From Astropecten irregularis (Eukaryota > Echinodermata > Asteroidea > Paxillosida > Astropectinidae), in contig OZ020255.1 of assembly GCA_963971285.1 (NCBI GenBank), positions 1,550,001 to 1,614,000 on the forward strand: DNA of 64,000 bases, in the 5' to 3' direction. Made by a program: the position numbers and the translations under genes. Numbering within the stretch: position 1 is the first letter of the stretch; every line of letters begins with the position of its first letter. This document shows, one piece after another, positions 29,987 through 58,468 of the stretch. Below the pieces are notes generated by a model. The model searched no databases, was not told the DNA's origin, and worked only from the letters and a program-made list of their open reading frames with translations.

Positions 29987-32190
29987 AACCGGTGCCCCAA
30001 ACCCCACAGTTTGACTGGGACCCAGTCTATTCAGGATGGTGCTAGTACAGTAGTAGCAGAATGAACGTTAATTAGCAAAACGGACATGAACACGGACAAC
30101 GTGTTTTCGGGGATTGTGGGTTAACGGGTCCTAAAACTATAAAGGAAAGGAAACTACTATTTGAAAAGTAACTTACCTACATATACTTTGTTGGTCTCCT
30201 CCTCTATATTACCAAGCTTAAATTTTTGGAAAGAGGGCAGGGTTTTGATTTTTGAGGGAAATTATGGGGTAAAAACGGTAACCAAGATTGTAATATTTCA
30301 CCGCCGCACGGACGGCCGCAGACGAGAATAGTCTGGTTTCCACTCTGACATTTTGAGGACTCTTGGTCTGTTGGGTCTGGGCACTAGACTAACCAGACCA
30401 GACAAAATGGCCTCACGCGATCAGACGGTCTGTTTTAAAGTTTACAAGAAGCGCGTAAGAAAATTGAATTTTAACCCTGAAATGTTTAACAAATTTCTTC
30501 AATGTAGGCTTTTAAGGACCCAGGAACATTTGCTGAAAGTCAAAAGTATCATTTTTGAGGAGTAGAAGTTAGTTCAGAGCCAAAAAATTCAATGTGTTTT
30601 GGGATCCCGTTAACCCACAATCGCCGTGTTTTCAGCCTCGCTATCTGTCCACCTAACGTTAAAGCTAATACTAATAGCCTAAATAATTAAACCCAAGTTC
30701 TTTTTTGGTCACAAATTTAATAAACAACAACTAAACCAATTCACTGGAAATAATGCCTTTTTAACCTGATCGCGAATAGGCCTATATCTGAACACAGCAA
30801 CGGATTTGTATTTTGTAAATCCATCATGATCAACACTGTCACAAAACTGGGATTCCTAACGTTAGTTTCGTCGCACCGGATTTGTAAATCCGACGATTCC
30901 AAGATTCGTTACACAAATACCCACATTTTGAAAGTCACTCTCCTAGTCCTAGGCCTACCTGAGTTTTCTCCCACAAAATATACTTACTTATTGGGTCTTG
31001 TTTAAGGTCCTAGTTCCAGTCTTCAGTGATTGTAAATTGTGATTGAGTTCCTACAAAAGTACTATTAGTAAACACCTGCGTATTGCACATGACACAGTGC
31101 ACATTCTTATTCATTGTTTTGTGACAAAACCTTGACATGCTTGATTACGCAAATCGTGTCACGAGAACTACAGGGTACCCCGACTATTTTGCGTGCTATG
31201 TTTATAGAAGCAAGCGTCATGTATCCTGTCGTCTAAAAAAAAGATATGAAATCAGGTTGGGGCGGGGCCAGCCAGTGGGAGGTTAGACATGTGTCCGATA
31301 TTGTCAGCGGCTTGCAGAGTTTCCCATTGACTCGTGTGTAATCATAAGCCGTAGCCATTTGATTTGGGTGCGACTTACGAACACCGGCTGTTATTACTAC
31401 GCCCTCTATCGACGATCGATCACGCTGATTTATTTACGCTGTACGATAAGTTCAGTGAAAAACAGACATTCTTTTAGCTTGTAGCAATGGCTTCGTCTGT
31501 TAAAACAGTAACGGATGAAACAGGTAAGTAGTTTTATTGTCCCACTGCTGTTTGCTCGAGCTCCAGGGATTTACTTTTACCTTTATAACGATACTTACCA
31601 TCGATGACGCGTCGACCATCGATCATTCGCGATCTTGACATCGCATAGGCCTACCAAGCACTTGTTGAGGGCGCCCTTCAAGCTGTTTATGGTGAACATT
31701 TATTGCAGGTGCTACTACTAGTAGTACAAGTAGGCTACTACTAGTACTACATGTACATGCTACATGTGGTACTGCAAAGTACTACATGTAGTACTGCTAG
31801 TGCCCACATGTAGCTACTAATTATGCTAGTGACAGATAATGAACATGTTGCAACGAATCTTGGAACCGTTGGATTTACAAAACAGGTGCGACGAAACTAG
31901 CTAGAATCCCAGTTTCATTGGCGGATTTTCAAATCTGTTGTTGTGTTTACAGAGATATTTGTGGTCAGGTTAAAAAGGCATTATTTTCAGTATATCGGTT
32001 TATTTAGTGTTGATTTGTGACAAAAACAACTTGAGTTTAATCATTTGAGGGGGACAGCGAGGCTAAACACACGTCGCCCGCGTTCACGTCCGTTCACATT
32101 CATTCCAATTCCACTAACCGTGACTAACGTTAGCACCATCTTTAATAAACTGGGTCCCATGGGTCAAACTGTGGGTTTGGGGCACTGGTC
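29987..32190. repeat. Large inverted repeat flanking PYM1 exon 1
   Basis: The left arm, about 29987-30910 (including element A at 30109-30625), is the inverse of 31852-32190. Shared blocks in order from the outside are a CCGGTGCCCCAAAC start, AGCCTCGCT.TC, AATGCCTTTTTAACCTGA, TAGTTTCGTCGCACC and CCAAGATTCGTT. Arms without element A are about 350-400 bp and about 70-80% identical by eye. The spacer holds the PYM1 promoter and exon 1. Confidence 0.8.
30109..30625 (+). mobile_element. Element A copy 2
   Basis: A 517-bp copy with ends GGGGATTGTGGGTTAACGGG and the complement GGCGATTGTGGGTTAACGGG, flanked by the direct repeat GTGTTTTC (30101-30108, 30626-30633). It is inserted in the left arm of the inverted repeat around PYM1 exon 1; the right arm keeps the empty site (about 32060-32075). 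Confidence 0.88.
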
Positions 32191-33201
32191 GTACACGTAC
32201 CGCCGGTGCCCATAGATTTAAAAAAATATTAAACTCCATGACCGGTGCCCCAACCCCACAGTTGGTCATTTTGTAAGGAATTTTGAGTCACCCTGAACTG
32301 ACTAAGTTTAGACCCAGTAACTCAATAACCGGGCGCCAAACTCCTTTTTTAATCTTGGGTGTCGACAGGGGGTCGGAAAGCATCTCTAATATAACTCTAT
32401 GGTTGGATTAGACAAAGTGTGAGTGCTGTTCTGTGACCTTTTCCAATCATGTTTTATAACTAATTTGCTTAAACTGGATTTTCGACAGGTACCTATATCC
32501 CGGCTTCACAACGACCTGATGGCACATGGAGAAAAGCAAAACGTGTCAAAGATGGATACATACCTCAAGAAGAAGTACCAGTGTAAGTATCGGGACGTTC
32601 AAGAAAAAACCCAAAATTGAATCAAACTTTGGTGTGATTTTGATTTTTGATGATGATGATTAAAAATTGCTTTTTCAGGTTTGAGAGCAAGGGCAAAAAA
32701 TGGATGAACAGCCGGCCGACACTTCCGCCGGGGCTAAACAACGATCCCGTCAAGCCCAAAGAGATCCAGCTGGTCCCCGAGACGTCTGCAAAGAGTTTGT
32801 CCAAGTCGGCCAAGAAGAAGGAAAAACGGAAGCAGAAACGTCAGGAGAAAGCCTCGGCTGATGAAGAGGGGGCCCTCCAAGCCCAAGACCATGAACAATC
32901 TGACGCAGTCGCTGAGAAGCTGGCCGGAGTCCATCTCTCTAGCACGACAAGCGGCAGCACTACCGTCACCGACAAGAAGAGTGCAGTGGAAGCATCCAAA
33001 ACAACTGGCAGGGCACCTTCGGCTCCCCCAGACAAGCGTGCCAAGACGTTACGGAAGAAGATCCGGCAAATGGACGAGCTCCAGGCCAAGATAGACTCTG
33101 GCGAGATCCAATCACCGAGCCAAGAACAATTGGACAAGCTGTCCAGGCGGTCTGAGGTGGAATCAGAATTGGACGACCTAGTGGATGAATTTGGAGTTTA
33201 A
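31487..33201 (+). CDS. PYM1: PYM1, partner of Y14 and Mago (exon-junction-complex disassembly factor)
   Basis: Cytoplasmic, ribosome-associated factor that binds the Mago-Y14 heterodimer and recycles exon junction complexes. Exons are 31487-31523, 32489-32582 and 32679-33201 (stop TAA), joined in phase for 217 residues; human PYM1 has 204. The N-terminal Mago/Y14-binding block reads [20 protein letters not shown], then [16 protein letters not shown] and a PELPPGL-like RPTLPPGL. A lysine-rich middle ([13 protein letters not shown]) follows, and the C-terminus is a predicted coiled coil containing [17 protein letters not shown]. The start is the only ATG before the first donor, and the short [13 protein letters not shown] leader fits the family. 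A GC box (31259-31270) lies upstream, and an AATAAA is at 33524. Exon 1 lies between the arms of an inverted repeat (29987-30910 and 31852-32190). Confidence 0.97.
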
Positions 33202-42333: not shown

Positions 42334-42542
42334 ATGGGGACGATACGGATATGTAGATCATTTTCCTTCCTTTCTGTAGTAATTTTAGGACTTCAAATTG
42401 TTCAAATGGAGTGTTTTAATTTAGAAACTCGGCTACCGATGGTGAAAGAGGGACCGCTGTTGAGCCGGTTTGGACTTTCGTTGGCTGAACACAGATTGAC
42501 CAAAACAAGAGCATCTTTCCGTGATGGTTACAATGGAAGTTT
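42334..42542 (+). CDS. Integrin alpha subunit, first coding exon (partial gene)
   Basis: The exon encodes a signal peptide (hydrophobic FSFLSVVILGLQIV at about residues 10-24), then FNLETRLPMVKEGPLLSRFG and LSLAEHRLTK. This is the start of the integrin alpha beta-propeller, whose blade 1 typically begins FNLD...GS.FG.S. The VKEGP spacing is closest to the laminin-binding ITGA3/6/7 group. It ends NGS plus two bases at a GTAAGT donor; the next residues expected in the family are LL(V)GAP. An AG at 42320-42321 may be a 5'UTR acceptor. No downstream exon was recognised in the remaining 21 kb, so the rest of the gene is beyond the window or displaced by the rearrangement described in findings. Integrin alpha identity is firm; the subclass is tentative. 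Confidence 0.85.
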
Positions 42543-42822
42543 GTAAGTAAAGTAAACTGTCTTTATAAACTGAAATTGTCTTTTTTATATTCATCTATAT
42601 TTTATGTTTTTATTTTCTGTGTGTTTGTGTGTTTGTTTTGTTTGTTTGATTGTTGTTTTTATTTGTTTTTTAGACAATGACAATGTATCTCATCTGTGCA
42701 TTTTCACTGTTGTGTTAGGCCTACCAGGTTACTGTCAAAAAAGAACTAGGGGGATTGTGATAAGACGAGTCCCAAAACTATAAAGGAAAGGAACACTTTT
42801 TGAAAAGTTACTTACCTAAATA

Positions 42823-44322
42823 TAGTTGCGATGATCGTAACCCTAGGTCTGACATGGGGACAGGGACCTTAGGGTTACGACACTTTGTTAATAAAAAGTG
42901 ATCGAAACACTTTTTGGCCAAGTTCTGAAATAGAATTGTCCTTAATTTTCCACTTTCCAAAATCCCAACACAAAATCTGACTACATGGATGTGATCGGTA
43001 CTTATCAATGAGTCATATAAAACCACTTTGAACATTGAAAGATCATTTTCTGCAGAAAAAATAACCCAAAACTTACCGAAGGTGTCGAGATTCCCTCCGT
43101 TCGCCGTCAATCGGCCATTTTGAATAGTGCGCAGTGTGCCATCTCGACCAAATTACGTCATGCGCAATGCCGTTTTGGCTGTTCCACCTTTCAAACTCCA
43201 ACTCACAGCCCTATGGATGGAGGGTGTTCCCAGAATAACACGTGCGCTGTGATACCGTGTACACGCATATCACATACAGTATGGAGGAGGTTTTTTGTTA
43301 AGTCCGCATTGTTTACCCATGTCAAGCTGCCGCTGACAATTCAAATCTTTCATCATGAACTGAAGGAAATTGCTAAGATTTTCAAATGATTTCCTTTACG
43401 AATGGTCCCGCAAACAGACAAAATGTTAGCAAGTCACAAACTCGGCGCCGACCGGCCGACCCAATCCATGATCAAACAGAAATAAAAAGGTCATCCACCT
43501 TATCACAGATCGCGCAGTGGTCGGAATTAACGGTGGACTGCAAAATATATCCGGTCTTCAATAACACCCAAAATGATCATACCCGGTAGGACAGTAAGAA
43601 CATCTTCATAAAAATATCACCGGAAAATTCCATGGGAAAAACCACCATTTCTTACTGCAAATCTGTACCGAGCCGGCCAGCCGTGAGCCACCGTCCGTAA
43701 CGGTGGAACGAACCCGGCCGCGATCCAAACAGGTAGCCTTCCGACCGGGCGCAACATTCACTTTATTTCAAGCCCACGGCATGAGGCCTACGTGTAACTG
43801 TACCGTGATTGAGACTTTCGCTGGTGCACGTGTACACAATGTACGTTTGCTTTGAAACTGTAGCTATTACTCACGCACGCGGCGCGGATACCAGGCTGTC
43901 TGTCTCTGCGGTGTGATGTGGGCAATGTTTTTTACGTCTTAATTTAATGCGATCGTCGTCGGTCGGTTTCGGAAGGATTTCACAATATTTTTTAGATTAA
44001 GTATAATTATGAAAAGAGTGTTTCTACTTGGCCAATTGAACAAAAAAACTGAGTGAAATTCAAGTAAGATTTATAAGCTGATGAGCCTGCGATTTGCGGT
44101 ACTTTGGAAGGACGGTCGATCAGAATTTTTATATTTAGATCTCGCAACGATATAACGCATACATATCATGTATACAAAATAAAATACACTCCATTTCTTC
44201 CTCCATGAACCGTATTTTCGCATGTGTTCGATGTCGGTGTTGGTCGGAAAAAAAATCACGCCGTATACGTTTTTCTTCACCTGTCATGAGCCGCGAAAAA
44301 ATAAACTTAATTCGGCAGTTTC
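42823..44322 (+). mobile_element. Second copy of the MULE-like element, left 1.5 kb, cut by the N gap
   Basis: Base for base it repeats 54721-56216. Only about five differences were seen by eye over 1.5 kb: an extra C near 55353, A/G at about 43606, A/G at about 43678, and T- and A-run length changes at about 43926 and 44298. It stops at the N gap, so its right TIR is not seen. It is preceded by ACCTAAATA (42814-42822), inside element A. Confidence 0.85.
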
Positions 44323-44522
44323 NNNNNNNNNNNNNNNNNNNNNNNNNNNNNNNNNNNNNNNNNNNNNNNNNNNNNNNNNNNNNNNNNNNNNNNNNNNNNN
44401 NNNNNNNNNNNNNNNNNNNNNNNNNNNNNNNNNNNNNNNNNNNNNNNNNNNNNNNNNNNNNNNNNNNNNNNNNNNNNNNNNNNNNNNNNNNNNNNNNNNN
44501 NNNNNNNNNNNNNNNNNNNNNN
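44323..44522. other. Assembly gap (200 N)
   Basis: Exactly 200 unknown bases. The left side ends inside the MULE-like element; the right side is unrelated DNA about 430 bp upstream of an SDF4 exon. Any reading frame across it is an artefact. Confidence 0.99.
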
Positions 44523-44950
44523 AACATGTCAAAGCAATGCCCAGGGGCACAAAGGCAATGCTCAGGAAATCTATTGTTTCATCTCCACCTTGCAAAACCT
44601 TCAGGCCTCCTTTTTGATCCATGTTAAAACCATCCCGGATCTGGCCCGGTTAATTTAGCCCGGCAAGTTTTTTAATCGGATTGAAGAGATGCAACATTCA
44701 CACCACGTTAATAGTGAAACTGCTCATACGACACGGATCATGGAGTAAAATGCATTTTGGAACATGGTCCTTATTACCGGGGTAAATTTCAAATGTAAAA
44801 AGGGTTTAACAAAATCTCAGGGTTGGATCCAGTCCCAACCTAGAGATTTCGGATAGTGTGAAAAGCCCTTTACATTTCCTTAATAATCCCCTTCTGAATA
44901 AACCCCCTGGGCTCAAGTATCTGTGTTTTTTGTGTGTCCATTTGATATAG

Positions 44951-46529
44951 AGGACTACCTGACGTACCGTGATCGCTGGAGCCGTGCCGATGAGGATGAT
45001 GACGATATCCTAAACCAGGAGGAGTTCTTTGCCTTCCTGCATCCTGAACACTGCAAGACCATGCTCAACCTCCTTGTGGATGAGCTGCTGCACGATTTCG
45101 GTGAGTACAAGGGTCAGGGGTCAACGGTCATGTAAGGCGATTGAGATAAATCATTTAAGACTTGTCATCCAGTCTTTGTACGGTCTTGTCAACATCTTTC
45201 TCACTCAACTCTCTGTAAATACTCTCTTTACTTGCCAAGAGCAAGATTTTGGAGAGTGAGGTTGGCGTAGCAGTTCTTCCTTTGCCTTTCACCTCTGGTG
45301 GTCCGGGTCCGAGTCCTGTCCAGTCCACAAATGGATTGGGTTTTCAGTTCCTACTTGATGCTGTGGGTTTTACCCAGAATATCCTTTTGGGGTTTTCCTC
45401 CCACGTCTTAAACTGCATCATCTTCTTCCCATCATCTTCCTCATGGATGTAAATATTGCTGAGGTGCCGCAGACTTGGGTTGATATTTTTCCTCACTCAC
45501 GAAAGAACTTTTTCCCCGTGCCCGGCCAGATACGGACGGAGACGCCAAGCTGACCCTGGGGGAGTTTGTCTCCCTGCCCCAGCTGAGCAGCAAGGAGCTG
45601 GACAAGGCAGCCAATCAGGACGAGTGGGTCCGGGAACGGGTCCGAGAGTTCAAGGACAACATGGACCTGAATCACGACGGCGTGTGCGACGGGAAAGAAC
45701 TCGAGGTAGGGTGCTGCTTGAAGCATGTTCTTGTTTTTGTCTAACCCTGCCTGTCCATGGGGACGACTATGGGGGTTTATGCAATAGAGACTCAGGCTCA
45801 GGCTCTGGCTCCATTTCGTGAATCCATTTTAAAATAACAGGTATCGAAATAGAGGCTTTTGGCTGTGGTTCGGACGTAGATTCTCTTGGTTTGAAAAGGT
45901 AAACGGAGCTGCAGCTTCAATGGAGAGCCTGAGCCTGAGTCTGAGCCCGAGCCTCCTTTTCGTAAACCCCCATCAACTTCATCATATGACTCCAGCTGCG
46001 AGAGTTTCAGGGAGTATTGTTACAGCCAGTCCGAGAGACTGCTGCAGAAGTGAGTCCTGAAACATGATGTACATGAAGGCCACTGTCAACCACAAGCACT
46101 TAGTGCTTACTGCAATGTTTGATATTAACACTATTAACCATCTGCACCTACCACACAAGACAAGAGCTGCTTATTGCACATTATTACAGTCGCCACAGGG
46201 GTAACTGGATCAGAGTTCAGAGTATGAAGTCAAGTTCATTCATACCGCTGGGACTCAAGTCGCGTCACCAAAATTTATGACTCAGGCTGAGACATTGACT
46301 CGAGTTCATACAAGACTGCTTTAACATTCTCCTCCGCCTTTCTGTCAAAAAGATTTACGTGGACCCAAGGAATCGTCAACACGCAGAAGGCGAAGCTAAC
46401 CACCTCATCGGCGTAGCGGACGCCAACGGAGACGACAAGCTCTCCCCGCAGGAAGTTCTGAGCAACTACTACATCTTCATCGGCAGCAAACTCTACAACT
46501 ACGGCAGGAATGTTCACGATGAGTTTTGA
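44951..46529 (+). CDS. SDF4: SDF4/Cab45, 3' part: last three coding exons
   Basis: Cab45 is a Golgi/secretory-pathway EF-hand protein that sorts cargo with Ca2+. Visible exons are 44951-45100, 45530-45705 and 46353-46529 (stop TGA), with matching phases. Exon a encodes DRWSRADEDDDD followed by FAFLHPEHCKTML; the HPEH segment is typical of SDF4. Exon b contains EF-hands DTDGDAKLTLGEF and DLNHDGVCDGKE. Exon c contains DANGDDKLSPQE and ends FIGSKLYNYGRNVHDEF, like human SDF4 ending VHEEF. Calumenin/reticulocalbin was considered because of the HDEF end, but the HPEH block and the GSKL.(N/D)Y...VH(D/E)EF tail favour SDF4. The 5' exons are absent: 400 bp upstream is the N gap, then a transposon. 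Intron b-c holds a CTCAGGCTC-rich foldback at 45766-45972. Confidence 0.93.
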
Positions 46530-46739
46530 GGTCACTCATTTCTTATTTTGACTTTTTTTTTCTAATTTTTTTCTAATTTTTTTTTGAAAATTTTGTATTG
46601 AGGTTGTATGGAGTCACCTATTGTGATGGTAATTGAACAACATGACGTACAATTTTGTTTGACAAACAGACAAATGGAGAGTCAGACAATCAAGCAATTT
46701 CTTTAGGTGGTGGCAATGCAAAACAGAACAGACAAACAA

Positions 46740-47155
46740 GTAGACAAATGTAGAAGGTGGTGCCGTGGTGGCAATGCCATGTCTCACTGAGGTGAGCAAC
46801 CATCTGATAGAACAGACAAACAAGCAGACAGATGTAGAAGGTGGTGCCGTGGTGGCAATGCCATGTCTCACTGAGGTGAGCAACCACCTGACAGAACAGA
46901 CAAACAAGCAGACAAATGTAGAAGGTGGTAGCAATGCCATGTCTGACTGAGGTGAGCAACCATCTGATAGAACAGACAAACAAGCAGACAAATGTAGAAG
47001 GTGGTGGCAATGCCATGTCTCACCGAGGTGAGCAACCACCTGACAGAACAGACAAATAAGTAGACAAATGTAGAAGGTGGTGGCAATGCCATGTCTCACC
47101 GAGGTGAGCAACCACCTGACAGAACAGACAAATAAGTAGACAAATGTAGAAGATG
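46740..47155. repeat. Minisatellite, 75-92-bp units x ~5
   Basis: Units contain AGACAAATGTAGAAGGTGG, GGCAATGCCATGTCTCAC and GAGGTGAGCAACCACC. It starts about 210 bp after the SDF4 stop, probably in its 3'UTR. The length of the units keeps minus frames open, giving a spurious 231-codon ORF. Confidence 0.9.
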
Positions 47156-49963
47156 ACAATTGTAAATTGTAGGATTGTAAATATTCAAAGTCAATGATGA
47201 CCTCCCATACATGGATCATTGAATAACAAATTCCACCGACCATGCTATCAAACAGAATAATAATGAACAATTTCTGAATTGACGGAAATCTTTCTCTGAT
47301 GTTATACATCGTAGTTCACAGCTATGGCAGATCCATCGCAATGAAAGTTGCAAAAACCTTCTCGGACCCAGCCAGGGATCAACAAATTTTGTACAGATTA
47401 GGTTGTTATTCTTCTCTTTTTTTAGATTTTGATTATCTTTTATTATTAATTTTTCTTCTTAAAAATTTTTTTTTTTCTTTAACAGTTTTACTTCTGGACG
47501 TTTATTTCACTTTTTCTTGCAAACGAAAAATGTCTGGTACAAAAAGTCTAAAAATATTCACCCATGAATAGCTGGAAAGGCTGATGACGCCTTGCGACTT
47601 GTTCACAAATTTTTCACAATAACATTATTAATTACGCACAGTATCTGGGGACCTATGCCAAGATGTTGGACACTGTAAAATCATGGAAGATCGGACGACA
47701 TGCTGTGCCACAAAATGTGATTACCGGTAGCAATTTCTGCTTACTGCAGAATTCTACTCCTAATTTAAACATTTTTCGCTTAGCATGGAATTTCTATGCT
47801 AGAGCAAGATGTTCTCATTTATGCATATGCAAACGACTGAAAACTTCTTGCTTATTTGTGGGATAGTACACTGTATCTTGTACTGCAAGCACCAAATGTT
47901 CTTAAATGCCGATTCTGCTAACAGTAAGCACAGACATGATACTGATACCCTATATCATCCCCAAAACCCAAGATGAAAAAATCCTAGATCAACTTGAGAT
48001 GCAATATATAGATAGGGTGTAAATATATAATTTTTACAAAATTGAAATGATCAGAATTTGTTTGTTTTTTCTTTATTTTTATTCAGTTTTGTTGTTTTTA
48101 TGTGGTATTTTCTTCAGTCAGCTGAAATTTGAGAGGATTTTTTGCAAGTTTGGTATTTGAAAGAGGTCATTTGAGAACACGGAATACATTGTGTATCATT
48201 GCCCCAATGATAGAAAAGATGGATGTTCAAATGGAATTTGAGGTATGAAACTTGCCCGTTTAGAATAATGTTTGGTGTCAGGAGATATTAACAATAAAAT
48301 GTTTTTGATGACATGCTTGGCCCAATTTCATGAAATCTGTTAATGCCCATTTTCGTGCTTAAGAACACTGCATGCTAATCGATCCGTAATTCTAGGCTAT
48401 TACCTTGATTTTTTTTTTCTGCTAACACATTGTCATGTGCATTCTGCAGAAAGTCCTTGTTTAGCAAAGCCAAAAAAAACTCTCCCGTGAAATACGCTAT
48501 AAAACCTTAAGCAAAAAAAGCTATCTGCTATTGTAAGCGAAGCATTTTGGCTTACGGTAACAGATTTCATAAAATTGGACCCAGGCGACGTTCTCCTCAA
48601 TTTTGTTTATGCTAGTATTACTTAAACAAGTGTATGTTGCCTTTTTGATATAATTATATCTCGTGAGTTTACGTTTTATGTAAACCTCACTCGTGAAATT
48701 AATGGCGTGAATTTGTGCGGTTTGCATAGGTTCGTGTACCATCTATAATCCTGCGTTACGACGGCTAGATGTAATTGTTAAACATTGTTATGTGTATGTC
48801 ATGTTGAAATTGTACAGATTCATTTCTTTCTTATTTGTGGAACAAGTAGGCTTTCGGTTCGGGTCTTTTCGAGTAGTCCCGAGCCGAGAGCTGAACTCTC
48901 GCCGTAGCCATGAGTCTCGCGAGAAAGTAGAGCGGTTTGAGATGTGTGAAAGAGACGATGACTGCGACTTTGAATGACTTGGCTCCAAGTCTAGCCACGC
49001 CTTGGTGGAAGGACTCAACTATTTTAGTATTGCACAGCATTATATGTGCAATTTGTAGATTTTGTAAAATTTTGTTCAATCACTTTTTTTTTTGGGGGGG
49101 GGGGGGGGGGTGTTTCATGTATTTGTAATTTTTGTGTTGTTTTAATTTATCATTTAACAGATTTTGATTTATAAATTCATAGATTTGCATGCTTTGATTA
49201 TTAATAATAGAAAAAAGTTCATGCATTATGTTTTATACATGTATGGTGATGTTTATAATGCATTGAGTCATTGTACATACATGTACACTACAATGCATGT
49301 TCATTGTTTTTCACTCATATTCATTTTTCTCATTAGAGCATAGGTTGTATGCAAATTAGGCTTGCCCTTCACCGACGTGGATGAGCACTGTATACTCAGT
49401 GCTTGTGAGAGCATGTGAGAAAAAATCACATGCTTGCTCAGGTGGGATTCGAACCCACGACCTCCTGCTTACTAGTGCAGATGCCTATACAGCATAGTAG
49501 TTGTATTGGGTCCAATTTCATAGGTTCGTTCAGTTTTTTAATACAAGAGTGTGCACAACCTCACTTACAAGCCATAGTCATATGAGTTTGCTTGGTTAAA
49601 AAAAAAATGAACAATCATGTTTTACAGTTGACTGTCATTACACAATCTTTTTAATAATTAGTAATAAAAAAGTGAAAAGAATTAATTGTTTTAATAATTC
49701 TAGCTGTTTTATTTTCATTTTTTGTTTTTTTGGTCACAGTTTATTCTCCATTTCTTTGCAACATAATTGATGTGATACATGTACTGTACATGAAATAGCA
49801 CTTTTACAGTATTAGAAAATATTTCTAATAAAGAGGAAAGTATGGAATGCAGTTTGTGTTTTCCTCTCTTTATTTCTGTTTTTGTTTTCAAGTTTGGAGT
49901 ACGGTATGTTCCAGGGTTGGACCACTGGGGCAGTTCAAATGTATACAACTGTTTAAATAAAGG

Positions 49964-50500
49964 TACTATGAGACTTAGGTAGAATACCAAAACAGAATTC
50001 TTCACAGATTTACCTTAACCTATAACTTACAGGGGCCAATTTCATAGAGCTGCTTAAGCACAAACTTTGCTTAAGCATGAAACATCTTCCTTGATCAAAC
50101 AGGACGACCAACCAAATTTGTATGTGATGTTTACTGCTTTTGACTTGTGTTCAGCCATTGCTTGCTGAGCATAACATTCACAGGGAGTTTAGGCTGACAT
50201 ACTGATTTTATTATAAGGTTTTTGGTGCTCATAAGCAAATTTTGGTTCTTGAGCAGCTCTATGAAATTGGGCCCTGATTATAAAGATGATGATGGTACAT
50301 GTAGAAACATACCATTAAAATTTAATTTGTCTGAAATGCTGTATTTATCCAGCAAAAAGTACAAACAAAGTCAAAAATATAGTTTTGATCTTGGGCTGAG
50401 ATCAAGAGTCCTGTGAATAGATTTACCGTGAGAATTGTTCACTGTTTTATCAAAAAGTGGACACTGTATTGGGACTGGAAATTTCAGGCCACTGATTTCA
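49964..50500 (-). repeat. TTAA-family foldback interrupted by a GGCCAATTTCATA foldback
   Basis: Outer fragments 49964-50033 and 50276-50500 belong to the TTAA family; the inner 50034-50275 is a complete ~240-bp foldback with ends GGGGCCAATTTCATAGAGC and its complement. In the SDF4-B3GALT6 interval. Confidence 0.75.
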
Positions 50501-51867
50501 GGAACAATGCAAATGTAGTGCACTGTCCACTGGCATTGCAGGCAACCAAGAGACTAAGTTAATTTCGACCACTGCTATAATATGAATAAATTTGAAATGA
50601 ATACCATTATGAAGTTTACAATTGAGTGTGTTTTGGTCGCACTGTAAATAATCAGTTGAACAGCTGAGTTATATGAGTTAAAGATTATTGTAAAAGGCAA
50701 AATAATACATTTTTAAAAAAACATTCTTCACAAATTCTTTCCACATTGAGAGTACTGTGGACTCAACATGCTCAAAGCAGTTTTAATAGCACCATGGAAA
50801 TTAATGGCAAAATTGGCAATGTGTATTAAACAAATTTCAATATTTTAATACTACTGTTTTAATTTTAATCAGGACTTTCAAGAACACTCTGGAATTTCAG
50901 TGACCAAAAGTGAAATGTCCGAAGACAGTGTCATAAGAATACCGCAGAGTGTGGTATTTTGTTAAAGGACTGTAGAGCCCAGGCACACTAATTTTACATG
51001 GGGCTTGGGGCCGATTTCATAAAGCTCCGTGATGCGACGCGTCTTTAGCTGTGAAGCGTCGAATAGATGCGATGAGTCCATAGAGTATGGATGCGTCTTA
51101 ACTCTGCGACACCTTGTAAGCTTTATGAAATTGGCCCAAAATTACCCAACTCTGTCCAAGTCCAAAGAATGTGCCATAGGGATACTGGACTCTGTCAAGT
51201 GGACAGTGTGGTACATGTATATAATGACATATGACCATACAGCCCAGACACTAAGTTAATATGGAGGCTTCGTAGCCCAATTTGGTTTTTGATGGCCAAA
51301 ATTATTTTGCTGCATGCAATTTACTATCTACAGAAGTTGGAATGTTTGATTAATTATCTTTATTATTAAAGTTGGCAAATCAAGCCCTTGGCTTGAAATA
51401 AAATGGCAAGTTTTGATGGCAGTTTTCAATCAAATTTATAATTACGATTAACATAAAAAATTGTTTTGGCAAAGTGAATAGACATGTATGCCAAAATACT
51501 GTCTATAAAAAAGGATGGCACACAAACATAAATTTGCATCTTCAGCATGAATAGAAGTTCTGTTTTTCTTTTAAACATTACAAACAATTAATCAAAATTA
51601 CTCAAAAACATTTTTAATTTCAATGTAAAATCTACACGAAATCTGAACAATTCTACTAAACTATCAAGCTTGAACAATTCAAATTATTTGTAATCCGTAT
51701 AAAAGTAATAAAATTTCTGCGCAGGCACGTTATCAATATCTCTGGACATAGTTCTTTCTTCTTCAAAACATTAGGAAAGATTTAAAAATTGTATCTTGAT
51801 GATTAGGCCTACATGTTGCAGAATTTAACATGGTGTTAAAATTTACTTGGGGTTAAGGAGGGCCTGA

Positions 51868-51925
51868 CGCATTTCGACCCTAGCAGGATCTTTCTCAAAG
51901 GCTAAATGACAAGGGGACAATTGAA
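51868..51925 (-). repeat. Hairpin-GAAAC motif, family b
   Basis: On the minus strand: GCCTTTGAGAAA, the hairpin GATCCTGCTAGGGTC, GAAATGCGTCAGGCCC. Copies at 10118-10165 (-), 17137-17225 (palindromic) and 59700-59790 (+). Several share the flank word GCATTTTATA(C/T)ATTTC. Confidence 0.65.
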
Positions 51926-52306
51926 CATGCAAGTAAAGTTGCACTTTAAATGGATGAGAGGATCAGAACAAAGGGAGGACTCAGAAGAAGGTAAAAAGTA
52001 ATGTTGGGTGGGGTAAGAAATAAGATGAATTCCGGAAAAGGAGACAACAAAACAATCATGTCATTCATTTCCTTCCTGGATGTTGAGGCCATGGGGTTGA
52101 TTGGTCCGGAGAATTTTCATCCAAACTTGCTTCCCGCGTCAGGGCCTCCAACTAAGCATTTTATATTGTTTTTGTCCACTTGTAATTTAGCCTTCAAGAA
52201 AGATCCTACTAGGATTGAAAACAAATCAGGCCCTCCAACTCCAAGCATTTTATATATTTCTCAAAATGCTGGAATCGACCAAGCCTACATTATACCCCTT
52301 TACCCA

Positions 52307-53314
52307 TTAAGGTACCCCTTCTACCCTTTCACAACACTCAGTGGGTATGTTATCCCAGTTGTAGACATATGATAACCTAAACTGCTGCTCCTTGGCGCAC
52401 ATTTTGCCTGTCGCCTGTAGCTGTTGATACTTAGACCTCATGTCCTGTATCGACTGTTTGTGCGTGACGATGTACACATTGCGACAGCCCCTTGACTTGA
52501 ACTCGGTGTCGAACCGGGGGTCGTGCTCACGCTTAACATTGATGGCGGCGAGCCACGACCCAACGGAGACGTCCTCCGCGTGGTATCTTTTCAAATACGG
52601 GCCGTTGTTTGAAATGAAGCTGACCAGATCGGAAGAGAGGACGTACCCCCCACCCATGGCATACGGTATGTAACGATCGCAGAGGACCCATTCGGATTCG
52701 GCGTATTTGCCGGTGCGGTGAGCATGAGCCCGACCGTCGAAGAATCCCCAGTAGAGCCGCTCTCGGCTCTTGGACTTGAGCTCACGAACCATGGCGTCGA
52801 GTCGGACGTAGGTGTCGTCGTCCGTCTTCAGGACATACTGGAAGTCGACGTTGCGGTCCAGCCACGTCATCATCTGGATGACCTTGTTGGTGAGCGAGCC
52901 GAAGGAATCCTTGAGCTTGGGGAGAAAGAGCAAGTCTTTGTGTCGCAACTGTTCCGCCTCCAGCATCTTCTTGTCGGACTCCTTCAGCTCCGAGGTGCCC
53001 ACCACAAACTTAGGCAGGACTTCCTTGCTGTGTTTCTGAAGCCAGGTCTCCCGAATCGTGTAGCGTCTCTCGATCAGCTGGGGGCCTGTCATGATGAACA
53101 CCACCAGGAAGGCGGAGAGCTTCTTCTTGGTGCGGGGTGCAGCCTTTCCCATCTCTTGATGGCCCTGCTGCTGTGGTTCACAGGCAACAGTCTCGGAGCT
53201 CTTGTTACCGGAGCCATCGTTACATGTTGCGATGATGTAAATGATGAACAGCATGAAAACACATGGCATCAAAATCACCAACTTATTCATGTTTGAACTT
53301 GCCTTTCTACCCAT
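52307..53314 (-). CDS. B3GALT6: B3GALT6, beta-1,3-galactosyltransferase 6 (galactosyltransferase II), intact
   Basis: Golgi type II membrane enzyme that adds the third sugar of the glycosaminoglycan-protein linker tetrasaccharide. It is a single uninterrupted exon of 335 codons, intronless as in human. A short cytosolic tail precedes the membrane anchor LVILMPCVFMLFIIYIIATC. The GT31 domain has RRYTIRETWL, the DxD metal site in KTDDDTYVRLD, the YAMGGGYVLS block and EDVSVGSWLA. The tail REHDPRFDTEFKSRGC to CCERVEGVP closely parallels human B3GALT6, which ends EGIP. The start is the ATG at 53314. The frame is open nine bases further up to a TTG, but that is not an initiation codon here; a TTTGACAG acceptor at 53329-53336 implies a 5'UTR exon. 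It is convergent with SDF4, 5.8 kb away. Confidence 0.97.
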   Translation of the reverse strand: MGRKASSNMNKLVILMPCVFMLFIIYIIATCNDGSGNKSSETVACEPQQQGHQEMGKAAPRTKKKLSAFLVVFIMTGPQLIERRYTIRETWLQKHSKEVLPKFVVGTSELKESDKKMLEAEQLRHKDLLFLPKLKDSFGSLTNKVIQMMTWLDRNVDFQYVLKTDDDTYVRLDAMVRELKSKSRERLYWGFFDGRAHAHRTGKYAESEWVLCDRYIPYAMGGGYVLSSDLVSFISNNGPYLKRYHAEDVSVGSWLAAINVKREHDPRFDTEFKSRGCRNVYIVTHKQSIQDMRSKYQQLQATGKMCAKEQQFRLSYVYNWDNIPTECCERVEGVP

Positions 53315-54720
53315 ATCTTTCAAGTCCTGCTGTCAAAAGAAACATGATGAAAAAGAAATACAAATAGAAAAGTTCAGTATTGTTAAATGACTGAAAACAG
53401 TCACAAGAAGAACAACATTATTCAACAAGGCACAAGCACACCACAGAAATCAGAATTTTGACAACATAGGGCCTAGGCATATGATTAGGCCCTATACAAA
53501 TTTACAATTAACATTTTTGTTAAGCCCAAAACAAAAAAAAATAATTTTGTGTTTACAAGTTTTTTGTCATTTTTTTTCTGCATTAGGCTAAATGATCTTT
53601 CGATGTTTGCAATGGTTTGCAATATGATTCCTTACTTAGGAAATGTACATGTAGGCCTACCTCAAAACGCCCCTAACTGGTTCCAGTACTAACGTTAGTG
53701 ATCAACTTCAACAAGTTCAACTTCAAGAAAGTTCAAGAATGGTCGTCAGAGGAATTCTAATTCTATCAATAATTCTTGCCGGTCCGGGGCCTAGGCAGTT
53801 GACAGAAAGTAGGCTAGGCCTAACTAGTAATGACTACGATTTTTTGGTCCAAGATCGTATTTTTTCTTACCCAGTTTCACTGTCTTTGCCTTTGGTGCAG
53901 ATCATTCGTAGGAACCGATCAGCAAATCACAATTCAATATTTCTGAACATCGTGATTCACAAACACGTCATTAAAAACCAACGTGCCACCATTCTTCGAG
54001 TCTTTGCCTTCGAACACACCGACTTCGAGAAGCTTTGCCAACGTAGCACTTTTCTCCAGGCCAGTCTACATCTGCTGGGCCAATCATTGTGGATTTGCCG
54101 ACAGATACACCTTGTTTCAGGTCAAGGTCCACCGTGGGAAATCAGACGAACTCTCGTCTCAAATTACAAAAAGTTTAATGGGCGCCGCCATCTTGACTGG
54201 TCCCTAAACCACCGTGTAACAGGAAGCCGATATCCCGGTGAATGTGTACCAGTGAAAAGTTTTGCGCGGTGCATTATGGGAATAGACAAAATGGCTGCGC
54301 CCATGAATGAGGAACACTTTCCTTCGACTTCGAGGAAACTCGAAAATGGATGGTTTATTTACAAAAGATCAAGATCAGTTGCAATTGAACTGTCGTACGT
54401 TTGGTAGTGTTTCATGATAACACCCCGTAAAGTAGTCCGTACCCTGTTTTCACCGAGAAAGAGAGTCACAATCTTTTCGGTTTTGCAGGAACGTTAGCAT
54501 GGAGGGAGCCGGGAGGATGTGTACGGCGCAGCGTGTACAATTACAATAGGGCCTACGTACACACCGAATGCCCTACACACCATTGCATTGCCACAGCACA
54601 ACTAAGTGGAACAAGTTGTATTTGTGAAAATACAAGTACAAAACAACAGCTTGCTGAGTCTGCAATAATCTTCCCTTACACATTACACAAGTCAAGTTAC
54701 AGTCAAGTCAATAATAAGCA
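53315..54720. other. B3GALT6 upstream region with an unassigned 222-codon frame
   Basis: A plus frame at 53739-54407 matches no family I know; its last part, MAAPMNEEHFPSTSRKLENG, follows CATTATGGGAATAGACAAAATGGC and looks like a possible first exon, but there is no supporting homology. The B3GALT6 5'UTR exon and promoter should lie here on the minus strand. Confidence 0.4.
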
Positions 54721-56786
54721 TAGTTGCGATGATCGTAACCCTAGGTCTGACATGGGGACAGGGACCTTAGGGTTACGACACTTTGTTAATAAAAAGTGAT
54801 CGAAACACTTTTTGGCCAAGTTCTGAAATAGAATTGTCCTTAATTTTCCACTTTCCAAAATCCCAACACAAAATCTGACTACATGGATGTGATCGGTACT
54901 TATCAATGAGTCATATAAAACCACTTTGAACATTGAAAGATCATTTTCTGCAGAAAAAATAACCCAAAACTTACCGAAGGTGTCGAGATTCCCTCCGTTC
55001 GCCGTCAATCGGCCATTTTGAATAGTGCGCAGTGTGCCATCTCGACCAAATTACGTCATGCGCAATGCCGTTTTGGCTGTTCCACCTTTCAAACTCCAAC
55101 TCACAGCCCTATGGATGGAGGGTGTTCCCAGAATAACACGTGCGCTGTGATACCGTGTACACGCATATCACATACAGTATGGAGGAGGTTTTTTGTTAAG
55201 TCCGCATTGTTTACCCATGTCAAGCTGCCGCTGACAATTCAAATCTTTCATCATGAACTGAAGGAAATTGCTAAGATTTTCAAATGATTTCCTTTACGAA
55301 TGGTCCCGCAAACAGACAAAATGTTAGCAAGTCACAAACTCGGCGCCGACCGGCCCGACCCAATCCATGATCAAACAGAAATAAAAAGGTCATCCACCTT
55401 ATCACAGATCGCGCAGTGGTCGGAATTAACGGTGGACTGCAAAATATATCCGGTCTTCAATAACACCCAAAATGATCATACCCGGTAGGACAGTAAGAAC
55501 ATCTTCGTAAAAATATCACCGGAAAATTCCATGGGAAAAACCACCATTTCTTACTGCAAATCTGTACCGAGCCGGCCGGCCGTGAGCCACCGTCCGTAAC
55601 GGTGGAACGAACCCGGCCGCGATCCAAACAGGTAGCCTTCCGACCGGGCGCAACATTCACTTTATTTCAAGCCCACGGCATGAGGCCTACGTGTAACTGT
55701 ACCGTGATTGAGACTTTCGCTGGTGCACGTGTACACAATGTACGTTTGCTTTGAAACTGTAGCTATTACTCACGCACGCGGCGCGGATACCAGGCTGTCT
55801 GTCTCTGCGGTGTGATGTGGGCAATGTTTTTACGTCTTAATTTAATGCGATCGTCGTCGGTCGGTTTCGGAAGGATTTCACAATATTTTTTAGATTAAGT
55901 ATAATTATGAAAAGAGTGTTTCTACTTGGCCAATTGAACAAAAAAACTGAGTGAAATTCAAGTAAGATTTATAAGCTGATGAGCCTGCGATTTGCGGTAC
56001 TTTGGAAGGACGGTCGATCAGAATTTTTATATTTAGATCTCGCAACGATATAACGCATACATATCATGTATACAAAATAAAATACACTCCATTTCTTCCT
56101 CCATGAACCGTATTTTCGCATGTGTTCGATGTCGGTGTTGGTCGGAAAAAAAATCACGCCGTATACGTTTTTCTTCACCTGTCATGAGCCGCGAAAAATA
56201 AACTTAATTCGGCAGTTTCGGCACACGTATAGGGTGTTTTGAGGGGTCTGGTCAATTCTATAACCTGTAATTTTTTTTAACCCAATACACCGAGCATGCT
56301 GTACGCGGCTGCTCGGCGGCCGTACCGTTGATATGGAGTATGGACACGCTCACACACTGTATCATCATGCGAGCGCAAGTGATACGAGCCCTCCATGGGG
56401 CTGTGAGTTTGAGTTTGAAAGGTGGAACAGCCAAAACGGCATTTCGCATGACGTATTTTGGTCGAGATGGCACACTGCGCACTATTCAAAATGGCCGATT
56501 GACGGCGAACGGAGGGAATCTCGACACCTTCGGTAAGTTTTGGGTCATTTTTTCTGCAGAAAATGATCTTTCAATGTTCAAAGTGGTTTTATATGACTCA
56601 TTGATAAGTACCGATCACATCCATGTAGTCAGATTTTGTGTTGGGATTTTGGAAAGTGGGAAATTAAGGACAATTCTATTTCAGAACTTGGCCAAAAAGT
56701 GTTTCGATCACTTTTTATTAACAAAGTGTCGTAACCCTAAGGTCCCTGTCCCCATGTCAGACCTAGGGTTACGATCATCGCAACTA
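54721..56786 (+). mobile_element. MULE-like DNA transposon, non-autonomous, 2,066 bp with ~400-bp terminal inverted repeats
   Basis: The ends are TAGTTGCGATGATCG and its complement. The left arm (54721 to about 55123) and right arm (about 56385-56786) match as inverted repeats over roughly 400 bp. The right end is followed by ACCTAAATA (56787-56795), which equals the 9 bp before the other copy's left end (42814-42822). Long TIRs plus a 9-bp duplication suggest the Mutator/MULE superfamily. No transposase frame is recognisable inside. The left flank here (ataataagca) does not match the right flank. Confidence 0.8.
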
Positions 56787-57029
56787 ACCTAAATATACCT
56801 TTGGTGATGTCCTCTTCTACATTATTAGCAAGGTTAGTTTTGTGGAAAGAGGGCAGGGCTTTGATTTTTGAGGGAAATTAGGCCTATGGGGTAAAAACAA
56901 TAACGAAGATGTAACATTTCATGGCCGCACGAACGGCCGTAGACGAGAATAGTGTGGTTTCCACTTTTTGTGAGGACTCTTTAATCTGTTGGGATTGGGC
57001 ACTAGACTAACCAAACTAGACAAAATGGC

Positions 57030-57484
57030 TAAATAAGTACGGCTACTTTTTGTTATAATCAAACAATGATGACAGCGTCTGCTGAAGAAAAAGAAAGAAG
57101 AAAGAATCATGATCCTCTATGCCCTCCCCAAGTCTTTGGAGGGGATTGACAAAGACTGAAAGTGTCTTAATGATTTTGTCGGCTTAAGGGTCAAATGTCT
57201 CCCAAAATGTCATCAATCAACTTGGAATTATGCACAATTGGAGATTGAAAACTGGAACTGGAACTTGAACGAAAACTTGAACTGGAGTTTAAACTGGAAA
57301 CGGAGAGGTCAGATGAACAACAACGATGTCACACATATCAAGAAGAGGCCAAGGATACATACATGTACTACCTAAGCAGACACTGTCATCATAAATAAGT
57401 ACGGCTACTTTTTGTTATAATCGAACAATGATGACAGTGTCTGAGCACTGAAGAAAAAGAAAGAAGAAAGAATCATGATCCTCT
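57030..57484 (+). mobile_element. Miniature element with terminal direct repeats (TRIM-like)
   Basis: Direct repeats 57030-57118 (89 bp) and 57392-57484 (93 bp), both starting TAAATAAGTACGG and ending ATCATGATCCTCT, bracket about 270 bp. The unit is flanked by AATGGC (57024-57029, 57485-57490). The uninterrupted target AATGGC is seen in element A at about 30406. The repeats lack TG...CA ends and no coding frame is visible, so an LTR-type origin is inference. A small inverted repeat (CAGACACTGTCATCA) straddles the right repeat. Confidence 0.65.
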
Positions 57485-58468
57485 AATGGCCTTGCGGTGT
57501 CAGACGGGTTATTTTCAAGTTTGCAAGAAGCGTGTAGAAAATTGCATTTTTACACTGAAATGTTGCACACATTTCTTCAATCCAGGCTTTTAAGGACCCA
57601 GGAACATTTGCTGAAAGTCAAAAGTGGCATTTTTGAGGAGTAGAAGCTATTTAAGAGCTAAAATAATCAATGTGTTTTGGGGATCCCTTCTTATCACAAT
57701 CCCAAAATTTTCTGTGTGTTTGTTTGTTTGTTTAGTTTGTTTGTTTGTTTTTTTAATTTATTTTGGTTTTTATGAGAATATGATTTCTGACCCCTAAAAT
57801 GACTGTTATTTAGCGATCTGTGGCATAATGACTCACCCTGGTGTTCCTGATGTCTTGCAGAGGCGTTCAGAAGATATTTCGGATGTCAACAAAAACGGGC
57901 AATTTTCAGCCCAAATTTCCCTACGTACAAAAAGGTCACGGTTCCCGTGACTTTTCCCATCATGGGGCTTTGTGAAATAATAAAGAAATACATTAGAACT
58001 ATTTCTACGAATCGAGCCTACATTCGATTTACGTATGTAGACGTCTGGAGACAACAGAACAAACGGAACCAGTCTACTCAGTACATTATGCGACTACTGT
58101 TTTTTTTTTTAAAGTTGAACAGGTATTTGAGTGAATGCACTCCATCGATTCATATCTATTTCAATAGGCAACAGTCATCGCATAATGTAATGGATACTGT
58201 CAGTATAAATTATAATGCATTGAAATATTTGATTGACAAGTCAACTGCTTGGGCATGTGTCAATCAGAGGATACATGTACAGGTGTAATGCATCCTTGGG
58301 AAATCCCAACGAACAGGAGACATTGCATTAAGCCTGATTAAGGCAACATAGTTGGCCCTGGATTTGGGTGGACTGATCTTATTGATATTCACACACAGGC
58401 CAGAATTTCCAGTGTGACTTGTTCCCTTTTAATTGCTCAATTTGCAGTAATTGATTGAACACCCATAA

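Follow-up and report, generated by a model that had tools for sequence, protein, structure and literature searches.

The window analyzed here comprises 64,000 nucleotides of chromosome 12 (chr12; sequence C19) in the Astropecten irregularis assembly eaAstIrre1.1. Its left flank is marked by the C-terminal coding exon of PYM1 (partner of Y14 and mago; 32683-33198, + strand), which displays 69%, 54%, and 53% identity to PYM1 of Patiria miniata, Acanthaster planci, and Asterias amurensis, respectively. Exon 1 of an integrin alpha-7-like gene lies at 42334-42542 on the + strand (61% to the A. planci integrin alpha-7-like protein), with a GT donor next to it. Further to the right are the left piece of an interrupted repeat (element A), a first copy of a MULE-like foldback element, a scaffold gap of 200 N (44323-44522) that is the only one in the window, a block with SDF4 and B3GALT6 sequences (44523-54720), a second copy of the foldback element, and the right piece of element A.

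The block begins exactly at the gap (44523, right after the 200 N) in mid-SDF4, and the gene is truncated there. Using tblastn with a human SDF4 (Cab45) sequence, we located three exons (44968-45099, 45529-45705, and 46356-46526; + strand), and the + strand of 44523-54500, when scanned with Pfam, yielded only a weak EF-hand below the cut-off. An earlier note on this DNA had assigned both SDF4 and B3GALT6 to the block; this holds for B3GALT6, which is intact, but SDF4 is represented by its three C-terminal exons only. The B3GALT6 coding sequence lies in one exon on the - strand (52307-53314) and has 335 codons and a stop, its product matches PF01762 (E 8.3e-32), and it displays 84% identity to P. 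miniata B3GALT6-like.

Element A is interrupted at 42822|56787. Its left piece (42750-42822, + strand) ends in the 9-bp sequence ACCTAAATA (42814-42822), whereas its right piece (56787-57703, + strand) begins with a second ACCTAAATA (56787-56795), and this pair directly adjoins the outer ends of the two foldback copies, at 42823 on the left (copy 1) and at 56786 on the right (copy 2), just as the earlier note had reported. Three relatives of element A within the window are unbroken at the split point (i.e., ~30109-30625, ~767-243 reversed, and the more distant ~975-1505), which bears out the claim that element A resumes without loss after the break. The distant relative has ACCTAAATA at 1041, and the two close ones, with which the left piece was aligned, have ACCTACATA at the split point. 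The location of the split was thus correctly given, but alignment with the relatives corrects the extent of element A to ~42750-42822 plus 56796-57703; its right piece contains an insertion of ~455 bp (57030-57484). The 8 bp outside the element (AGAACTAG and AAAATTTT) match at only 4 of 8 positions, so the expected 8-bp duplication is missing, a caveat already raised in the earlier note and an observation that counts against the proposed assembly error discussed below. The two close relatives (B and C) have perfect 8/8 duplications (GTGTTTTC and CCAAATTG).

Foldback copy 2 (54721-56786, + strand) is full length (2,066 bp), with inverted arms of 398 bp that differ from each other at 7 positions. 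Copy 1 (42823-44322, + strand) comprises the first 1,500 of the 2,066 bp and, as had been noted, stops at the 200-N gap, which hides its inner end. Judging from its sequence, copy 2 is probably a non-autonomous element. The copies resemble Mutator-like (MULE) non-autonomous foldback elements and their MITEs in having long inverted arms and target duplications of 9 bp. No transposase domain was found in the six frames of copy 2, and for this reason the superfamily name is a putative one, given after what such duplications and arms usually mean. Of 20 family loci analyzed by script, 4 lacked an exact terminus at one end, leaving 16 that were tabulated: 10 have target duplications matching at 9/9, 1 has a 10-bp duplication, 4 (including copy 2) have mismatched ones, and 1 touches a gap.

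The two copies are 99.67% identical, in line with the near-identity over 1.5 kb that had been claimed for them. They display 5 differences in ~1,500 positions, namely three single-base indels in single-base runs and two A/G differences. At all 5 sites copy 2 has the state of its six nearest family copies. The state of copy 1 at 4 of the 5 was also scored in more distant copies, in 13 (all lying in a larger deletion), 3, 2, and 1 of 19, and therefore the differences need not all be sequencing errors. In addition, copies 1 and 2 have in common 3 sites in the first 1,499 bp that none of the six nearest relatives has, and one of these sites is missing from all 19 other aligned copies. None of these private sites lies before MULE position 1162.

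The block has a perfect counterpart on chromosome 21 (chr21; sequence C29). Over 10,256 bp, window positions 44523-54778 match chr21 9,570,053-9,580,308 without a single difference, the block itself (44523-54720) being 100% identical to 9570053-9580250. This region of chr21 has no gaps across 9566001-9586000, carries the further 5' SDF4 exons that are absent from the window (9568504-9569621), and has a second B3GALT6-like gene adjoining B3GALT6. Contamination from another species was rejected, since the block shares repeat families with its flanks and has its identical counterpart on a different chromosome of this genome.

At the right edge of the chr21 block, we found a 70-bp MITE between TAATAAGCA duplications, which consists of the first 58 and the last 12 bp of the MULE. 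The corresponding switch region in the window (54712-54778, + strand) combines TAATAAGCA, which on chr21 is the target duplication to the left of the MITE, with the initial 58 bp of the terminal repeat, a partly palindromic stretch common to the chr21 MITE and the chr12 MULE. TAATAAGCA followed by the initial 20 bp of this repeat (at most 1 mismatch) occurs at only two places in the genome, chr21 and this join. The left flank of copy 2 had been described as lacking a partner, and a second element end with that flank had been proposed as something to look for elsewhere. Indeed, no partner is present in the window, but there is one on chr21, where TAATAAGCA recurs beyond the 70-bp MITE. We had expected a full MULE as the chr21 partner, which proved wrong, as the site in the assembled haplotype is the MITE. 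The 4 kb to the left of the chr21 block in this haplotype gave no match to the MULE.

On chr12, the block lies in intron 1 of the integrin alpha gene, with the later exons to its right. Within the window, tblastn detected exon 1 of the integrin gene but no other, since exon 2 is located just past its edge, at chr12 1615725 (window-equivalent 65725; A. planci protein as query). In all, 23 further integrin matches were found on the same strand of chr12 at 1615725-1639693, in gene order except for one overlapping pair, and no gap is present in 1614001-1694000. The three + strand frames of 57.7-64 kb had no Pfam match. The sequences to the left and right of element A have a full-length 100% match on chr12 only (40 candidates scored per search). 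Comparison with related genomes, as the earlier note had advised, revealed that PYM1 and B3GALT6 are on different sequences in all 4 named echinoderms in which both were found, among the matches listed; in A. planci, the PYM1 and integrin matches listed are consistent with a single contig.

Based on these sequence comparisons, we consider it highly likely that block 44523-54720 would be a chr21 overhang misplaced on chr12 during assembly, and that the true locus would read A-left, one MULE, and A-right. This is the arrangement that had been suggested as the simplest (42822, one 2-kb element, and 56787), and it gains support from the identity with chr21, the integrin exons to the right, and the lack of linkage in relatives. 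The duplicated SDF4/B3GALT6 genes on chr12 are very probably not real.

We propose that a chr21 overhang of ~10 kb, about the length of one HiFi read, came to lie at the left end of the right-hand chr12 contig, where it would have been produced either by one chimeric read or by one read being joined through a short overlap. The attachment between chr21 and chr12 would have occurred within the 58 bp with which the terminal repeat begins. Consequently, the overhang may have blocked merging of the true chr12 neighbors, both of which would reach into the same MULE. Hi-C scaffolding or curation would then have set the two contigs adjacent, correctly, with the gap and the foreign overhang trapped between them. 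The 200 N are probably a placeholder size (the other 3 gaps met in fetched loci also have 200 N each), and the chr21 portion could extend further left inside this unsized gap. Copies 1 and 2 would represent one element assembled twice, and the true order would be integrin exon 1, A-left, the 2,066-bp MULE, A-right, and integrin exon 2, with an intron 1 of ~11.3 kb and not 23.2 kb. The join suggested in the earlier note, through the identical element, needs a change in one detail, as the assembled chr21 haplotype has at this site no second 2-kb copy but a 70-bp MITE, which shares its initial 58 bp with the MULE.

We counted in favor of this artefact that the 10.26-kb overhang is close to the mean HiFi read length of 9.85 kb (22.66 Gb in 2.30 M reads) given in section 5 of the genome note (PMC11480709). 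The start of the block at the gap, the rarity of the TAATAAGCA and terminal-repeat combination, the sites private to copies 1 and 2, and the agreement of copy 2 with its six nearest relatives at all 5 differing sites were counted on the same side. On the other side, the right-hand join (54721-54778) lies within a contig, with no gap, and 58 bp of shared sequence is little for joining long reads by overlap. The occurrence of copy 1 states in more distant family copies was also weighed against the artefact. The genome note (PMC11480709), in the passages drawn on here, mentions no PCR amplification of the HiFi library. Given the short overlap and this silence on PCR, the exact route to the chimera stays conjectural.

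A compatible variant of the artefact, which we regard as unlikely, posits an unassembled chr21 haplotype with a full 2-kb MULE at TAATAAGCA, so that the assembler would have had an overlap of as much as 2 kb between near-identical elements for the join. Both the composition of the MITE from the two ends of the MULE and the distribution of private sites agree with it; since copies 1 and 2 share none before position 1162, the left part of copy 2 could derive from another full-length copy. However, identical 70-bp MITEs were found at 28 other places among 40 candidates scored, and therefore the chr21 MITE is most simply explained as an independent MITE insertion.

The earlier note had left the choice between the assembler and recombination in the animal, and the sequence data appear to favor a contig-end artefact. 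A real, very recent rearrangement would require a break in the chr12 MULE and its repair with 10 kb or more copied from chr21 via the terminal repeat (i.e., templated insertion or translocation), which would leave one MULE on either side of a second SDF4-3'/B3GALT6 copy within the integrin intron. The unbroken join 54721-54778 in one contig would fit such an event, as would a switch point in a shared, partly palindromic terminal repeat, which homology-mediated events give. However, the MULE copies, which would have formed at the same moment as the block, have 5 differences in 1,500 positions compared to 0 in 10,198 for the block (Fisher P 3.4e-5; for substitutions alone, 2 versus 0, P 0.016), a contrast not readily expected from one genuine duplication. 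The truncation of SDF4 exactly at the assembly gap, the separation of PYM1 and B3GALT6 in relatives (among the matches listed), and an overhang of about one HiFi read also speak against a rearrangement, which we deem quite improbable. There is an equally slim chance that a chr21-to-chr12 event placed a second B3GALT6 in the integrin intron and that the foldback element is a repeated rearrangement point in this genome.

A composite transposon, in which two MULEs and the 10-kb block moved from chr21 into element A and created the ACCTAAATA duplication, was at first the most attractive biological reading and agrees with the matching outer 9-bp sequences and with an inner flank of copy 2 unpaired in the window, but it is now barely credible, as the assembled chr21 site, with a 70-bp MITE at its right, no MULE match in 4 kb at its left, and the inner-flank partner on the far side of the MITE, removes its main requirement. 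In the alternative transposition and macrotransposition of maize Ac/Ds (e.g., PMC4270019 and PMC3744419), a pair of closely spaced element ends can displace or rearrange the intervening DNA; since the assembled chr21 source has no second full element, a process of this type is unsupported here.

The artefact resembles the false duplications and false gene gains treated, e.g., in PMC9516828, in that a gene-bearing segment occurs twice and the second copy is an error. Those are tied there to haplotypes, whereas the extra copy here would come from another chromosome and be attached at a transposon terminal repeat. According to PMC10234299, contig ends in HiFi assemblies cluster in repeats and leave unresolved joins, a trait shared with this locus; the breaks it describes in human are mainly in segmental duplications, satellites, and GA/TC-rich sequence, whereas a 2-kb foldback DNA transposon is involved here. 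No published report of this misjoin appeared among the titles listed (e.g., the best 8 of 359), which is no proof of its absence. If uncorrected, the misjoin would leave the A. irregularis annotation with a spurious second B3GALT6 and a spurious half SDF4, and would make the integrin intron 12 kb too long. A cheap forensic test may consist of searching for unequal target duplications on a young transposon together with an adjoining fixed-size gap and a perfect copy on another chromosome.

Since some other foldback copies in this assembly lie at gaps or have mismatched duplications, the error may recur and could be searched for. Gaps were found in 2 of the 20 family loci (L023-L042) versus 0.17 expected (P 0.012, with loci taken as 5 kb each), an excess that is no more than suggestive of the same trouble at other copies. 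We looked for the same signature at family copies with mismatched target duplications. Repetitive sequence flanks L029 on the right and L040 on the left, and for neither flank did the 40 candidates scored include another 100% match. At L038 (C8:34661038), the flanks could not be traced to a single clean insertion site, and the left one has a partial second match (92-98%) ~10 kb to the right on C8. The MULE of L038 and 1.5 kb of its right flank are shared with unplaced contig C101 (99.74%), and ~6.3 kb further right there is a 200-N gap with a terminal repeat directly after it, which looks similar to the locus described here.

We consider it very probable that the block at 44523-54720, which carries the C-terminal SDF4 exons together with B3GALT6, is chimeric sequence overhanging the end of a contig, because it begins at a gap and in the middle of a gene, is about one read long, and differs in divergence from the transposon copies beside it. 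These copies belong to a foldback (MULE-like) element that interrupts another transposon, element A. Copy 1 (42823-44322) is cut by the single scaffold gap in the window (N 44323-44522), and copy 2 (54721-56786) is complete at 2,066 bp with 398-bp inverted arms. The 9-mer ACCTAAATA abuts copy 1 on the left (42814-42822) and copy 2 on the right (56787-56795); its only third occurrence in the window, at 1041, is the corresponding place in a distant element A relative. Two nearer relatives of element A, at about 30109-30625 and 767-243, run unbroken across the split point; on this comparison, the halves of element A and the two 9-mers are both sides of a single insertion, which bears out the reading of the earlier note. 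The caveat raised there about the outer edges also holds: the 8-bp duplication found around both close relatives is absent from element A (AGAACTAG vs AAAATTTT), and age may be the cause. Inside element A lies a ~455-bp insertion (57030-57484) that neither the 30109 nor the 767-243 relative contains. With direct terminal repeats of 94 bp (57030-57119 and 57392-57485, 94%) and ATGGC at each side, it resembles a small LTR-type (TRIM-like) element.

Sequences left and right of element A gave one full-length 100% match each, on chr12 (C19; 20,066,109 bp), among 40 candidates scored. Exon 1 of an integrin alpha-7-like gene lies at 42334-42542, and PYM1 (32683-33198) is its close neighbor. No second integrin exon was found inside the window; exon 2 lies beyond it at C19:1615725-1615853, and 23 matches to the Acanthaster planci integrin protein extend up to C19:1639693 on one strand, in gene order save for one overlapping pair, with no gap in C19 1614001-1694000. 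As later integrin exons stand to the right of the block on the same strand, both flanks are, by protein similarity, parts of one chr12 gene, with the block as assembled inside its first intron. This intron measures about 23.2 kb including the block, versus about 11.3 kb with one element.

Searched against the genome (168 contigs, 475,729,200 bases), the B3GALT6 end of the block (52310-54720) matched at full length and 100% identity in two places, its own and C29:9577840-9580250 on chr21 (13,675,778 bp). Indeed, when 20 kb of C29 was compared, window 44523-54778 equaled C29:9570053-9580308 with 0 differences in 10,256 bp, and C29 has no gap across the shared segment. Only SDF4 exons matching residues 201-362 of the human protein used as query occur in the window; residues 55-175 were matched at C29:9568504-9569621, left of the shared part, and these exons are missing from the window. 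A 76-bp minisatellite of about 4 units or more (46723-47155) downstream of SDF4 is identical in the chr21 version. To the right of the shared segment, C29 carries a 70-bp MITE (C29:9580251-9580320) with TAATAAGCA on each side; its opening 58 bp and closing 12 bp are identical to those of the 2-kb foldback element. Allowing at most one mismatch, TAATAAGCA joined to the terminal repeat start was found in the genome only on C29 and at the window join. The left flank of copy 2, for which the earlier note saw no partner and proposed a search elsewhere, thus has one on C29, across the MITE and not a 2-kb element. The MITE is largely palindromic. It recurs at full length and 100% identity in at least 28 other places (among 40 scored candidates), suggesting a very recent burst. 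The B3GALT6 of the block shares 84% identity with Patiria miniata, 82% with Asterias amurensis, and 81% with A. planci. A second B3GALT6-like stretch lies about 1 kb further right (C29:9581205-9581956; 67% over 752 bp), and two B3GALT6-like proteins are on equal-length sequences in P. miniata, A. planci, and A. amurensis (among the matches listed).

Among the matches listed for both genes, PYM1 and B3GALT6 were on different sequences (perhaps not all whole chromosomes) in all four named echinoderms: P. miniata (14,560,089 vs 48,504,769 bp), A. planci (2,510,654 vs 3,751,176 bp), A. amurensis (17,751,778 vs 17,110,720 bp), and Amphiura filiformis (86,018,223 vs 67,502,775 bp, where a match may be to either B3GALT6-like gene). 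In A. planci, PYM1 and the integrin are on a sequence of the same size (2,510,654 bp); human ITGA7 and PYM1 are also near each other, at 12q13. Collectively, the chr21 identity, the integrin continuity, and this comparison with relatives, which the earlier note had proposed, support its model of one 2-kb element with the block joined in, and sharpen the mechanism.

The genome report (PMC11480709) describes the Astropecten irregularis assembly eaAstIrre1.1 as 475,837,774 bp in 186 scaffolds (chr12, 20.07 Mb; chr21, 13.68 Mb) with 786 gaps, assembled with hifiasm, purge_dups, and YaHS from 22.66 Gb of HiFi data in 2.30 million reads; from these figures we computed a mean read of 9.85 kb, about the size of the block. 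All four gaps met within the stretches examined are exactly 200 N, so this size is probably a placeholder. A real duplication is a most improbable origin of the second block: the copy pair and the block pair would be of the same age and should show like divergence, yet copies 1 and 2, near-identical as the earlier note had it, show 5 differences over 1,500 positions and the blocks 0 over 10,198 (Fisher P 3.4e-5; P 0.016 for substitutions only). Copy 2 agrees with the six nearest family members at each of the five sites, and it is copy 1 that deviates, in three cases by one base within a run, as would low-coverage errors near a contig end; against an error, four of the five copy 1 states were also scored in some of the more distant copies. 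In addition, copies 1 and 2 have in common three sites within the first 1,499 bp that none of the six nearest copies has, as fits a single element assembled twice. The chimeric join could have formed through a chimeric molecule that switched within the 58-bp shared repeat, through a read ending at that repeat and a short-overlap join, or, should the other haplotype of chr21 carry the full element, through a longer overlap.

The case is of low biological interest; its value lies in a concrete assembly correction and a way to find further cases. The foldback element has at least 121 genome matches (from the best 40 of 1,952 first-look candidates), the top 20 of which were extracted as loci; 16 were tabulated, and the other 4 had an exact terminus on one side only. 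Target duplications at the 16 were a perfect 9 bp in ten, 10 bp in one, and mismatched in four, including copy 2, with one left end touching a gap. Gaps occurred in 2 of the 20 loci versus 0.17 expected, and at L035 (C12:2903910) and L040 (C12:2212825) 200-N gaps touch, or lie about 0.27 kb from, 2-kb copies. Together with a case on C8, the mismatched duplications and excess of gaps suggest that the element may be a weak point for assembly. More specifically, L038 (C8:34661038-34663042), L059, and L039 (C101:5517-7523) comprise a C8 copy and its counterpart on the unplaced C101. The C8 copy looks like a candidate second chimeric join: its right side matches C101 at 99.74%, the 9-bp duplication is intact on C101 and mismatched on C8, and a 200-N gap about 6.3 kb to its right has a terminal repeat directly after it.
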